A DNA stretch of 64,000 bases, taken from Lytechinus variegatus. Its lineage: Eukaryota; Echinodermata; Echinoidea; Temnopleuroida; Toxopneustidae. Below, piece after piece: positions 30,777 through 42,146 of this stretch. The notes beneath the pieces are model-generated. The model worked only from the letters and a program-made list of their open reading frames with translations, was not told the DNA's origin and made no database searches. The stretch covers positions 15,160,778 to 15,224,777 of the forward strand of contig NC_054755.1 in NCBI RefSeq assembly GCF_018143015.1. Reading direction: 5' to 3'. The position numbers and the translations under genes were made by a program. Positions within the stretch are counted from its first letter, which is position 1; each line of letters opens with the position of its first letter.

Positions 30777-31456
30777 ATGAGTCAATATCATCAACAGAGT
30801 GGAAGGGACCCAGGTGGCAGAAAAAATGAACCTTCAGAACATGATCAGGTACGTCAATCCATTCCATATTCTACACTAAACACAAACTCATGATCATTAA
30901 CAAGAAAACAAATGACATTTATAATGTTCACTAAAATCGATTGACAGTCAGTGACATTAGCTCTAGTCGTCTATTTATCTTAATTGTATAGTCGCTAAGA
31001 CCAACCGAATATCACATGGAATACAAGTAACAAGTTATTTTTCCAAAACCTTAAATGTTTACATTTTGCAATGTCCAACATGACTCCCACATTTGCAATA
31101 TCTATCGATCATGTCAGTAGAAAGTAGTGCGAAGAAACAACGTCTATGATCATATATGTCATCTCTTCCCACTAAACACATCTTTTTGTCTTTTTTTTCA
31201 ATATTGTTAACAGGTAAAGATAAAGGTGGACTTTAACGGGACAAAAAAATCCTTAGAAGTAGTCTTGGATTGGACCCAAGACTTCCTGATTGAGCAGATC
31301 GCAGCCCTTATCAACGTAGATATAAGTCAATTTTACGTGACTTTTGAGAGTAAGAAGTTGCATGGTGCCAAAATGATATTTCATGTTGGAATACGGGATG
31401 GTAAAACAGTATATGTCAATTTGCGACTGCGAGGTGGGCTTAAAGTTATATTTTAA
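30777..31456 (+). CDS. ubiquitin-like protein Ubl-1 with leader exon, 104 aa
   Basis: The leader exon, 30777-30848, starts at the ATG right after an AG acceptor. It encodes 24 residues with DPGGRKNEPSEHDQ and ends at GTACGT. The second coding exon, 31214-31456, begins in phase 0 after TTGTTAACAG. It encodes a 75-residue ubiquitin-length domain, from VKIKVDF through SQFYVTFESKKL to VNLRLRGG, then LKVIF and a stop. A lysine sits at the place of ubiquitin K48. The end matches ubiquitin LRLRGG, so removal of the last five residues by a processing protease would expose a conjugation-competent diglycine; that is inferred from ubiquitin biology. AATAAA lies at 31950. I know no named family with this leader. 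Confidence 0.82.
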
Positions 31457-32595
31457 TGATATAATAATGTACTCGGGAGCCGGTAGTGCATCTTTTCTCA
31501 ATGCTATCATTCGCACTCCTATTTCCACAAGTAAGATTTACACTGCCCCACTCCAGAAAAACGATAGCTGCAGATGATATTATTTTTTCTAGCGTTTACT
31601 TCACTCATTCAAAATAATTTGGTTTAACTCTGTAAATTCATACTATTAAGTACATAGATAAACATAGTGAAACGATTCTCCACGTTTTAATGATTTTTCT
31701 TGTCGGTTCTCTGATGTATTTTTCTTATGTATTTGAATAATATGTATATCTTAGACATGGTTATATTCTCCAATTGAATTAAATTTCCTTTGCATTTATT
31801 ACAGATTGAACAAACAAAATATATAACAGATATAGGAGTGACATTAAGTTTGATACCAAGTAATGAGGTGATTAGTCACAGGAAATTTCATCTAATTTAC
31901 TGGAATTTTAGTCATCGAATGATCATAATGGAAATGATTTTATTACATGAATAAAGCTTCTTAATTCCGTCATCACCCATTCCACACTATTGGTCAAACA
32001 CCCAGCTCTAAAAACTGCTGTATATTTTATAGAACGATTTATTCTTACATCATATACTGGATCTCACCATTCTATATAATGGCGCTATATAGTTTCAGGG
32101 GCTGAAAGCTCTTTTCAAAGGTGGCGGACACAATTGAGTTTACCATTTTTCTTTGTAAATATATATATTTACACACACATATGTACGAGAGACTAGTCGA
32201 ACCGATACCCCTTTTCCTACCCAAGTTCTTAACCAAAATATATCGATATGATATATATTTCGAAATTCAAGGATACATGTTTGATTACGATTTTGAATGA
32301 TGCATTTTATTCCATCATAAAAGAGCACAAATAGTGGGGATATTTTATATTGTGTCCCTCTATCCCCTTTGGTATTTTCGCCCATGTATAGTTCACTGCA
32401 AAAGTTCAGCCATATGTTAATATTAAATTGTTCATTAGTGATAATGTTCAACTGGTATTTGATTTTTAAAGTTTTGTCATGAATCGATTGTTTGGTACAA
32501 ATGCATTGCTTTACTGTGATAAATTGATAGAATGTCTAGTAATCAAACTTATTGTGACAACCCAATATAATGAAAAGGGTTCAGATAGAGATTAG
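31457..32595 (+). other. 3' UTR of Ubl-1 and AT-rich spacer
   Basis: AATAAA at 31950-31955 would end the transcript. A 103-codon - strand frame from 32451 to 32140 has no supporting features. Confidence 0.45.
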
Positions 32596-32599
32596 ATAT

Positions 32600-33067
32600 T
32601 TTTCAATTAAATGCCATTTAATCTGCATGCAAATGTATATACATGATGACACATGTAAGTGGTAGTTAAGGTGTTTAATGTGTGAAAATAAATGGAAATG
32701 TATTCATGAGGTTGATTGCCTGGAGTCGCTTGAATTCTTAAAATTATTAATACTATAAAAGATAACTATCGATTAGTATTCATCTTTTTATAAACTTTTA
32801 TACACAGCCCCCAACATTCGAATATAAATGATACATTAATTTGTATTGAATTGCACACACTTTCTATTGTTTATACACTCATTTAAATTTATATACCAAA
32901 GGGTTTGCTCTTCTTTGTAATAAGTTTATCTATTTGTTCCTATGTGTGTCGTAATGATTTTTTCAGATTAAATGGTTTAGTTCCCCGGACACAGTGTGTG
33001 TCTTTTCTATATCTGTTTATATTTCGTAATCAGTTAAGAGAAAGTGACTGCCGCAAGAGACATACCG
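32600..33067 (+). repeat. paralogous flank, copy downstream of Ubl-1
   Basis: Counterpart of 18483-19110, in the same order and ending at a GAT tract. Confidence 0.7.
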
Positions 33068-33130
33068 AAGATGATGATGTTGGTGATGATGATGATGATG
33101 ATGATGATTAAGGTGATGATGATTACGGTG

Positions 33131-33162
<32 letters not shown>

Positions 33163-39807: not shown

Positions 39808-40950
39808 CAGACATCATCAGAGAAAAATCGCCGAAAATTGAAATTGATAAAATCATCATCAAGGTTTTTCGAGAAGGAAACGTGTCTTTCTCATCAGCGA
39901 TTGGAAAATGATTTGTTGCGATAGGGTGTAAGTGTGTCTGCGTGTATGACTCTGAGGGCTTGTGTGGTGAATTGATCATGTTTTGTTTCTAGAATTCGAG
40001 GAAAGCTATACTGGGTAAAGAAAATGGACAGTGGGAAGCCCCCATTCAAGACTAGTGGTTGAATTTTGCCAAGCATCAGTAATCTAGTACTTAACAGTAC
40101 CTCAGTGAGTTAGTTGTGCACTTCATCCTATATTCTGAAACGCTCCCCGCCCCACCCCTCTCGTGATAAGCAGGAACATACCATGGGAGAGTCGACACCA
40201 ACCCCGGGTCCAAGATACAATGAACCTTTCCGTAAAAGGGTAAGTTTAACCTTAACAATAAAAATGTTTGATTTCATTCTGTTGTGGTCAATCTCAAAAT
40301 TGATTGCAGTGTCGAGAACTGGTTGAAAATATTCAGATTGTTGTCATCAATTCCCCATTTTATCAAATGTTGTTAATATGAAAATTTAACATCCTTCACT
40401 AATGACATGACTAACAAGAATGTGCCAGTTGCAAATAAGAGAACGTATGTCTAAAATAAGATGTGTCGATTTATTTTGCATGTAGATATTTCTCTGATTT
40501 TAAATCCAATTGTACAATATTTTCTTTAACAGATTAAATCATTGCCTGGCTTGTGCGGAATCATCTACTTCTTTATTTTCCTTGCGTTGTTCATCGGTTT
40601 TCTGTACTATACTGGAGTGATATGTTTTTCTTTTTCAAAGACTATGCAAATTTATCAATGCTGAAATGGCATATACGAACACTTTTGATCGAATTAGATT
40701 ACAGGGTAGGTAATATGATGTCTGGTCTGATTTTAACATTATCTAAAATATCCCCTTTCCCTAAAATACCATCCACGACGACAAACATTGGACCCCGTGA
40801 AAACCAACTAGAAAAAATAATAATAAAGAAATTGAAAAATCCATAACAGACATCATCAAAGAAAAATTCCCTAAAAATCTAAATTGATCCAAATTACCAC
40901 CATGGATTGTTCGAGAAGAAAACGTTCCACTGACGTATCTGTCTCATCAG
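39808..40950 (+). repeat. shared upstream block of membrane gene D and Ubl-3
   Basis: ACAGACATCATCA(G/A)AGAAAAAT, then AAATTGA, TTCGAGAAG.AAACGT and TCTCATCAG, occur in the same order at 39808-39905 (upstream of gene D) and 40848-40950 (upstream of Ubl-3). It is an approximately 100-bp element kept upstream of one gene of each class. Confidence 0.7.
40183..40664 (+). CDS. membrane microprotein D, 62 aa
   Basis: Exon 1, 40183-40239, encodes MGESTPTPGPRYNEPFRKR before GTAAGT. Exon 2, 40533-40664, enters in phase 0 after TTTCTTTAACAG. It encodes IKSLPGLCG, a hydrophobic span at about residues 29-51 rich in Phe and Ile, and a tail with SKTMQIYQC. GFLYYTGVI at the end of the span matches ILYLTGNI of A and B, supporting common descent. 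It has one cysteine before the span instead of three, and a longer C-terminus. An in-frame ATG lies upstream at 40114; I prefer 40183 because the leader motif then sits close to the start as in the paralogues. I found no ERSE upstream. AATAAA occurs at 40822. It is 470 bp from the start of Ubl-3. Confidence 0.65.
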
Positions 40951-40991
40951 AGATGGGAATCCCCCGACTAAAAATTATCATCACCACTGCC

Positions 40992-40999
40992 CTATAAAG
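40992..40999 (+). promoter_or_regulatory. TATA box of Ubl-3
   Basis: CTATAAAG, about 140 bp before the Ubl-3 ATG, would place transcription start near 41020 with an approximately 110-bp 5' UTR and no upstream exon. A TGACGTA core lies upstream at about 40933. Confidence 0.5.
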
Positions 41000-41132
41000 G
41001 CTCGACACCGACTACGTCCTCATCAGATTTTCCTTCACACAAGCAAGGAAACTTTTGAATGGTTGAAACCTTCGATATCATCAGGAATCGAGCAGATTTC
41101 ATCGAGCTGAATTCAACAACGTCAAACAAATT

Positions 41133-42146
41133 ATGAGTACATACGGAACCACAGGCAACGAAGGCGGCGAAGGTGATGACGGATACGGTGAAGGGACCTA
41201 CGGCGTTCAAAAAAACGAGCCTCCTGAGCATGGGCCAGGGAACGAAGGCAGCGGAGGTAATGGCGGATATGGAGAAGAGACCCATGGAGTTCAAGGAAAT
41301 GAGCCTTCCAGGCATAGGGTAAGTTCAGATCAACTTATATGTTCTATTTTGAGGGTCAAATTTTATGGAAGGATAACAATACGATAGAATTTATGTATAT
41401 ATGTGGAAAAAAATGTTAAGAATGGAATCAGTACTGGATGATGATCATGTTCATGAATAGAATATCAAAATATAAGAAAAATATGGCAGTATATAAAAAA
41501 AAAGTTTTTCGAAATTACAATTTAGTTTCCCTACTCTTAGATAAAGCTATCCACTTACTGGATCATTACAAAACTTTCTCCGATATTTCCGATATATCTT
41601 ATTTGGTAAAGGCATAGCATATCAAATCCAAATCAATCTGTGAGTAGCATTCATATTCGGGTTTTTTAAAGAATAATTTCACAATACTTTCCTGTAAATG
41701 TGTTTTACAACTTATGATAATCTAGCTTTGACCTTAATTTGAGTATTTAATTTGGGATACAGTTACAAAATATGATTTGATAAGGAGAAATATAACAATG
41801 TCTTACCTTATTTCATGATATTATTCCAAATTTATATCCAAAGATAAAAAAGTTTAAATGCATAGAGAAACGCAACAACTCATAATTTTTCTCCATTTTA
41901 TCACGTTTCCAGGGCGACATCAATTTTTTTGTAAAGACCACTGGAAATTCAATTCGAATGAATGCCAACTCAAACTGGACTCTCAATGAACTACACAGGA
42001 GTGCCGCCTCAACGTGCAGTATGGACCATAGCCAATGCTACTCAACTTGCGTTGGTATAACACTATCTGGATCCCGAAAGATTTTCGAGACAAGTATTCA
42101 GGACGGTTCAACTATCAACGTGAATGCACGTCTACGTGGGGGCTAA
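41133..42146 (+). CDS. ubiquitin-like protein Ubl-3, ends at GG, 139 aa
   Basis: Exon 1, 41133-41318, encodes a 62-residue Gly/Glu-rich leader made of two repeats, each containing GNEG, GYGE, GVQ and NEP: the first ends KNEPPEH, the second GNEPSRHR before GTAAGT. Exon 2, 41913-42146, enters in phase 0 after ATCACGTTTCCAG. It encodes 77 residues: GDINFFVKTTGNSIRM (FVKT as in ubiquitin), the family NW motif, a cysteine-rich middle (four Cys: STCSMD, QCYSTC), SRKIFETSIQDGSTINV, and RLRGG immediately before the stop. It needs no tail processing to expose diglycine. The lysine at the K48 position is lost (GITLSG). Exon structure and phase match Ubl-1 and Ubl-2. Confidence 0.82.

Follow-up and report, generated by a model that had tools for sequence, protein, structure and literature searches.

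A review (PMC9722776) states that ISG15 is made as a precursor, cleavage of which exposes the sequence LRLRGG, and that its orthologues are found only in vertebrates. Another article (PMC13030082) notes that there is evidence for systems resembling interferon in invertebrates. We analyzed a stretch of 64,000 nucleotides from the sea urchin Lytechinus variegatus (NCBI RefSeq assembly GCF_018143015.1, contig NC_054755.1, positions 15,160,778 to 15,224,777 of the forward strand), hereafter called the window, in which three + strand exons code for domains of ubiquitin length, each with an RLRGG end; positions given below are those of the window. With a probability of roughly 0.6, these exons would belong to a tandem birth-and-death family of conjugatable, one-domain modifiers of the ubiquitin type, with N-terminal extensions, a replaced Ile44 patch, and an intact tail. 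No description of such a family of ubiquitin-like (Ubl) proteins was present in the titles and abstract openings of the open-licence literature matches listed.

The three domain exons, with their stop codons included, lie at 31214-31456 (Ubl-1, with the end NLRLRGG-LKVIF), 36606-36863 (Ubl-2, with the end NGRLRGG-DKAKYFPSI), and 41913-42146 (Ubl-3, in which NARLRGG stands directly at the stop). When the predicted spliced proteins were searched with hmmscan, the Pfam ubiquitin family PF00240 matched the whole domain of Ubl-1 (E 1e-6, 28.8 bits), Ubl-2 (E 4.6e-5, 23.5 bits), and Ubl-3 (E 1.3e-3, 18.9 bits). With a profile of the three domains and a limit of E 1, 286 PDB sequences were retrieved; in the best 60 of these 286 rows, single ubiquitins span E 6e-7 to 1.6e-5, and ISG15 begins at 2.9e-6. 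These matches bear out the claim of an earlier note on this DNA that three genes encode ubiquitin-length domains with RLRGG ends; the span given there for the cluster, 30777-42146, was also right, running from the ATG of the first leader exon to the last base of the Ubl-3 stop. A second profile, composed of the three Ubls and human ubiquitin, was run against the 2083 stop-to-stop open reading frames (ORFs) of at least 20 codons in the window. It recovered the three Ubls and one fragment, the truncated copy described below, at E 1e-5, with the next row at 0.16, and no further Ubl domain was found among these frames. One Ubl domain was present per gene, and a tandem pair of the ISG15 type was not seen. 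NCBIfam held no family matching the three domains, whose mutual identity is 34-49%. Judged by the profile matches, the three domains are shown to be homologous to the ubiquitin/ISG15 branch, and the cluster is real, of the ubiquitin family, and probably functional.

The likeness to ubiquitin lies in the domain length, in the gapless alignment of Ubl-2, in K48 of Ubl-1 and Ubl-2, and in R72-L73-R74-G75-G76, which is kept in all three domains as a diglycine tail of the ubiquitin type. About 20 identities between Ubl-2 and ubiquitin had been counted previously, and the ungapped alignment with the human sequence gave 20 over 76 residues, including K48-Q49-L50 and R72-G76. Of two proposed family signatures, N/D-W was found at position 20-21 in every domain; SQFYVTF held in two of them but not in Ubl-3, which reads SQCYSTC. 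The differences from ubiquitin are the Ile44 patch (positions 8, 44, 68, and 70), which is altered at 4/4 positions in 3/3 domains, the lysines, of which at most one in seven is kept (K48, in Ubl-1 and Ubl-2), the leader exon, and the occurrence of single domains in place of polyubiquitin. Residue 72 matters for the choice of the activating enzyme (E1), and the Ile44 patch for receptor binding. NEDD8 resembles the Ubls in its fold family and diglycine end, whereas it has Ala72 where all three Ubls have Arg72, and by sequence the Ubls are not NEDD8-like. SUMO has the tail QQTGG in place of RLRGG. At 14 listed core positions, Ubl-2 is hydrophobic except at 23, and Ubl-1 except at 13 and 23.

Five residues (LKVIF) follow GG in Ubl-1 and nine (DKAKYFPSI) in Ubl-2, and none in Ubl-3. 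Together with a truncated copy at 30421-30489 and closeness to ISG15, both treated below, these residues in two of the three proteins are additions to the earlier note. They would suit Ubls that are not conjugated and that inhibit ubiquitin enzymes or act as unattached binding partners, with RLRGG kept for the binding of an E1, a protease, or a receptor. Position 71, which is G in Ubl-2 and A in Ubl-3, points in the same direction, and the interaction might be made through the leaders. However, none of the five tail residues differs between the three domains despite a domain identity of 34-49%, which fits selection for catalysis, and we regard non-conjugated Ubls as an unlikely explanation.

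The domains were further compared with human ubiquitin, the C-terminal domain of ISG15 (ISG15-C), NEDD8, FUBI, and SUMO2, a set of five or six reference sequences; the z-scores refer to global alignments in which the RLRGG tail was held fixed in the shuffles. Ubl-1 shared 28/76 identities with ISG15-C versus 20/76 with ubiquitin, Ubl-2 shared 22 versus 20, and Ubl-3 shared 17 versus 21. The z-scores to ubiquitin and ISG15-C were 4.5 and 10.3 for Ubl-1, 5.9 and 7.6 for Ubl-2, and 6.5 and 4.0 for Ubl-3. ISG15-C was the best reference for Ubl-1 (32.4 bits versus 11.0 for ubiquitin) and Ubl-2 (18.2 versus 11.7), and the three-domain profile gave 28.4 bits with ISG15-C, 24.4 with ubiquitin, 5.1 with NEDD8, and -0.6 with SUMO2. 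In global score, NEDD8, FUBI, and SUMO2 fell below ubiquitin and ISG15-C, the NEDD8 score of Ubl-1 (42) being near that of ubiquitin (46); the global z-score of SUMO2 for Ubl-3 (4.2) was like its ISG15-C value of 4.0. The likening to ubiquitin in the earlier note therefore stands as homology but is too narrow, since Ubl-1 and Ubl-2 score higher against ISG15-C, although Ubl-3 does not.

Searches of PDB with phmmer gave a graded picture. For Ubl-1, 29 ISG15 chains were retrieved, including three under older names that we take to be ISG15; 28 of them (6.3e-7 to 0.0071) outranked all mono- and di-ubiquitins (best 0.02), and one, 5tla, came lower at 0.23. Polyubiquitins of at least three units were interspersed with the ISG15 chains, their repeat scores adding up. 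Where the ISG15 chain was of full length, Ubl-1 matched residues 88-165, which form its C-terminal domain. The result for Ubl-2 was mixed, with di-ubiquitins from 6.8e-5, a redesigned single ubiquitin at 0.0033, ISG15 at 0.017, and a natural single ubiquitin at 0.032. For Ubl-3, ubiquitin came first and no ISG15 was present among the best 60 of 158 rows. The features common to ISG15 and the Ubls are RLRGG, a strand of the form F-[WY]-x-[TS]-F, and the replaced Ile44 patch, in which human ISG15-C has the same Thr44 and Asn70; in mouse ISG15-C, positions 44 and 70 are presumably Ser and His. These comparisons indicate an unexpected lean towards the antiviral tag ISG15 in two of the three members, slight in Ubl-2.

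In a maximum-likelihood tree of eight sequences without SUMO2, the three Ubls grouped together with support of 100/100 and joined ISG15-C with 96/96. Forcing the Ubls to group with ubiquitin (p 0.041) or with ubiquitin and NEDD8 (p 0.03) was worse in both cases by the approximately unbiased (AU) test, these tests having been chosen after the first tree was known and with SUMO2 left out. With SUMO2 included, the support for the Ubls and ISG15-C was 75/88. Considering the long branches and the small set, the placement with ISG15-C is moderately supported and may be taken as a lead and not as proof. One explanation of this lead is that the genes are true ISG15 orthologues outside vertebrates, such that ISG15 predates vertebrates and a one-domain form was kept with the ISGylation machinery. 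The identities of Ubl-1 with human ISG15-C, the position of its match in the C-terminal domain, and the 96/96 support speak for this explanation. Against it stand the drop to 75/88, the possible attraction of long branches, the small set of five or six references, the single domain in place of two, the preference of Ubl-3 for ubiquitin and the mixed PDB result of Ubl-2, the His presumed in mouse where human ISG15-C has Asn70, and the restriction of ISG15 orthologues to vertebrates in the review cited above. Overall, orthology appears quite improbable. A broader proposal is that an invertebrate possesses an ISG15-like system of its own, in which tandem, fast-turnover, one-domain, leader-bearing modifiers act in antiviral or stress defence without interferon of the vertebrate type; such a system would be left over from an ISG15 older than vertebrates or would have arisen separately from ubiquitin. 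We offer this proposal tentatively and consider it possible, though doubtful.

Upstream of each domain exon, a leader exon of phase 0 was predicted on the + strand. Leader exon 1 (MSQYHQQSGRDPGGRKNEPSEHDQ) lies at 30777-30848, with its ATG at 30777 and the donor GTACGT. Leader exon 2 (MNQPRHNQNAIPPPGGIGNEPSRHAQ) lies at 36117-36194, also with an ATG and the donor GTACGT. Leader exon 3, which would encode 62 Gly/Glu-rich residues containing NEPPEH and NEPSRH, lies at 41133-41318, with an ATG and the donor GTAAGT. The length of all three candidates is divisible by three, the acceptors before the Ubl-1, Ubl-2, and Ubl-3 exons read ACAG, ACAG, and CCAG, respectively, and NEPSxH near the donor is common to the predicted leaders. 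The local alignment score was reached by 0/1000 shuffles for leaders 1 and 2, 4/1000 for leaders 2 and 3, and 23/1000 for leaders 1 and 3; by these counts, leader 3 is the least well supported. As no ATG precedes the domain in the open frames of Ubl-1 and Ubl-3, an upstream exon is needed there, given an ATG start. In the Ubl-2 frame, in-frame ATGs precede the domain, so that an unspliced start is possible for this gene.

At the DNA level, loci 1 and 2 aligned over the leader and the start of the intron (30772-30989 with 36112-36342). The idea that conservation between these two loci is limited to exons was accordingly rejected, and since the intron start is conserved as well, conservation of the leader alone is no proof of coding. 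Between loci 1 and 3 and between loci 2 and 3, no DNA alignment exceeded the scale of the shuffled controls, which were made for loci 1/2 and 1/3. Splicing of each leader to its domain exon is a prediction, and the sequence supports the earlier description of a ubiquitin-like family with a conserved tail and leader exons, the leaders being its predicted part. The predicted leaders, of 24-62 residues and without a hydrophobic stretch, do not look like signal peptides, being non-hydrophobic. SUMO and ATG12 likewise have an N-terminal extension ahead of the beta-grasp domain. Further upstream, two candidate non-coding first exons on the + strand, both ending in AAAAG|GTAAGT and both with an arbitrary left edge, may lie at 29780-29821, ahead of the truncated copy and Ubl-1, and at 35508-35549, ahead of Ubl-2; an extra first exon is plausible because the ends at 29821 and 35549 are conserved between the duplicates.

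These duplicates form part of a block at 28736-30199 that is repeated at 34479-35921 with 76% identity (1154/1514 columns, 121 of them gap columns), corresponding to approximately 0.19 changes per site in the ungapped columns. In the first copy, the block runs into a truncated fourth Ubl copy (30421-30489, + strand, KQLGG..VRVS), which lacks the RLRGG tail and is identical to Ubl-2 at 20/23 residues and at 91% over 66 nucleotides. Ubl-1, which comes next, is a remoter paralogue of Ubl-2. The array thus seems to gain and lose copies through tandem duplication. The differences at the first, second, and third codon positions were 27/23/44 over 80 codons between Ubl-1 and Ubl-2 (chi-square p 0.019) and 34/33/56 and 36/33/58 over 76 codons in the two pairs with Ubl-3 (p 0.016 and 0.012), so that third positions were the most changed in all three pairs, which are not independent of one another. 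For Ubl-1 and Ubl-2, the nonsynonymous and synonymous rates (dN and dS) were 0.41 and 1.66 by NG86, with a dN/dS of approximately 0.25, and 0.43 and 1.71 by YN00. Constraint at the protein level on the open frames is shown by these codon comparisons. The genes could alternatively be decaying duplicates of a once functional modifier gene, with Ubl-3 perhaps a young pseudogene whose frame is still open, as the adjoining truncated copy and the loss of hydrophobic core residues in Ubl-3 would suggest. Decay nevertheless appears rather improbable, as no frame is interrupted, the splice signals are canonical, the tails are intact, and third positions are the most variable in every pair.

If the genes encode conjugatable modifiers, as we prefer to read them, each of the three tandem genes would join two predicted coding exons into a leader and one RLRGG-ended Ubl domain. 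The product would presumably be cytosolic, with a disordered leader and a beta-grasp fold. Ubl-1 and Ubl-2 would be trimmed to GG by a protease of the ubiquitin or ISG15 type, and Ubl-3 would need no trimming. The last Gly would be charged by an Arg72-accepting E1 (UBA1- or UBA7-like), followed by attachment to substrates via conjugating enzymes (E2) and ligases (E3); this conjugation is what we infer from the sequence. Since none of the three domains has retained the Ile44 surface, the tag would be read by receptors of its own and not by ordinary ubiquitin receptors. The birth-and-death pattern and the lean towards ISG15 weakly suggest an immune or stress role. If the proteins are conjugated, a non-vertebrate animal would possess a private, fast-evolving tag that has the ubiquitin tail and lacks the ubiquitin recognition face. 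Such a tag would inform the question of whether tagging of the ISG15 kind arose before vertebrates and interferon or was reinvented. The proteins would then also provide natural variants, intact in the tail and diverged on the surface, for asking what E1s and proteases read.

Several results weigh against this reading. Only Ubl-1 exceeds the PF00240 gathering score of 25.4 bits, Ubl-2 and Ubl-3 falling below it. Two of the three domains have G or A at tail position 71, and the core of Ubl-3 shows the losses V17A, I30A, and L43S. Ubl-3 resembles ubiquitin more than ISG15, ISG15 has two domains whereas the genes here have a leader and one Ubl domain, and the AU tests were selected post hoc without SUMO2. 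The dS values are saturated in both pairs with Ubl-3. Structure prediction, which had been proposed for all three domains, was carried out for Ubl-2 and Ubl-3 and yielded models of low confidence, the mean pLDDT (predicted local distance difference test) being 46.3 and 60.4, respectively, with a three-sequence alignment. The Ubl-3 model had the b-b-a-b-b-b order, which at a mean of 60.4 is too weak to prove the fold. Foldseek with this model gave a best E of 0.15, the top rows being ISG15 and ubiquitin variants and unrelated folds appearing from rank 9; among 1012 matches at E 10 or better, none was at E 0.001 or better.

Relatives elsewhere were sought by pattern, with 26 matches in viral contigs and 78 in prokaryote contigs, none of which was confirmed. 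The genes might in principle descend from a ubiquitin that a virus or mobile element captured and spread, and the repeat-rich surroundings, with a long interspersed nuclear element (LINE) at 20431-23586, would fit such an origin. However, no relative was confirmed in IMG/VR by a degenerate scan, and the three copies keep the predicted intron and stand in tandem within the window, so that capture is highly improbable. The CpG observed/expected ratio was 0.82 in the window and 0.79 in the Ubl cluster, that is, little depleted, unlike the ratio of approximately 0.2-0.3 in vertebrates; by this measure, the reading of the genes as ordinary ISG15 paralogues of a vertebrate was considered improbable. 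In style, the repeats gave an impression of cephalopod sequence.

The LINE lies on the - strand as an ORF2 of 1051 codons, with a Pfam RVT_1 match at E 1.5e-38 and an endonuclease match of 23 bits, just under the cut-off. Also on the - strand, a 354-codon ORF at 27012-28073 contains RLRGG and had no Pfam match at E 0.01; we take it to read like a LINE ORF1. The RLRGG is probably a coincidence, in view of the missing Pfam match and of this reading. A short ORF at 34515-34718, with CQHGCTVNIMIMISTSHFKFCTN, likewise had no Pfam match at E 0.01 and may belong to an adjacent gene as an exon; in its duplicate, near 28800, no single frame stays open. A large tandem duplication joins 6345-10739 and 11739-16386 in three aligned pieces of 86-88% identity. 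At 33017-33895, a GAT/ATG-like trinucleotide array of approximately 0.8 kb leaves several frames open, and at 44766-48819, approximately 4 kb of pyrimidine-rich repetitive sequence contains long overlapping open frames that, by reading, are not genes. Identical 150-bp direct repeats at 61134-61283 and 61532-61681 surround approximately 250 bp, at the start of which stands a complete tRNA-like sequence, read on the - strand (61283-61354; 60.9 bits; anticodon read as TCA); Rfam at gathering thresholds gave one tRNA in the window. The whole of 61134-61681 looks like a small long terminal repeat-like element of the TRIM (terminal-repeat retrotransposon in miniature) type, with the tRNA sequence at the position expected for a primer-binding site.

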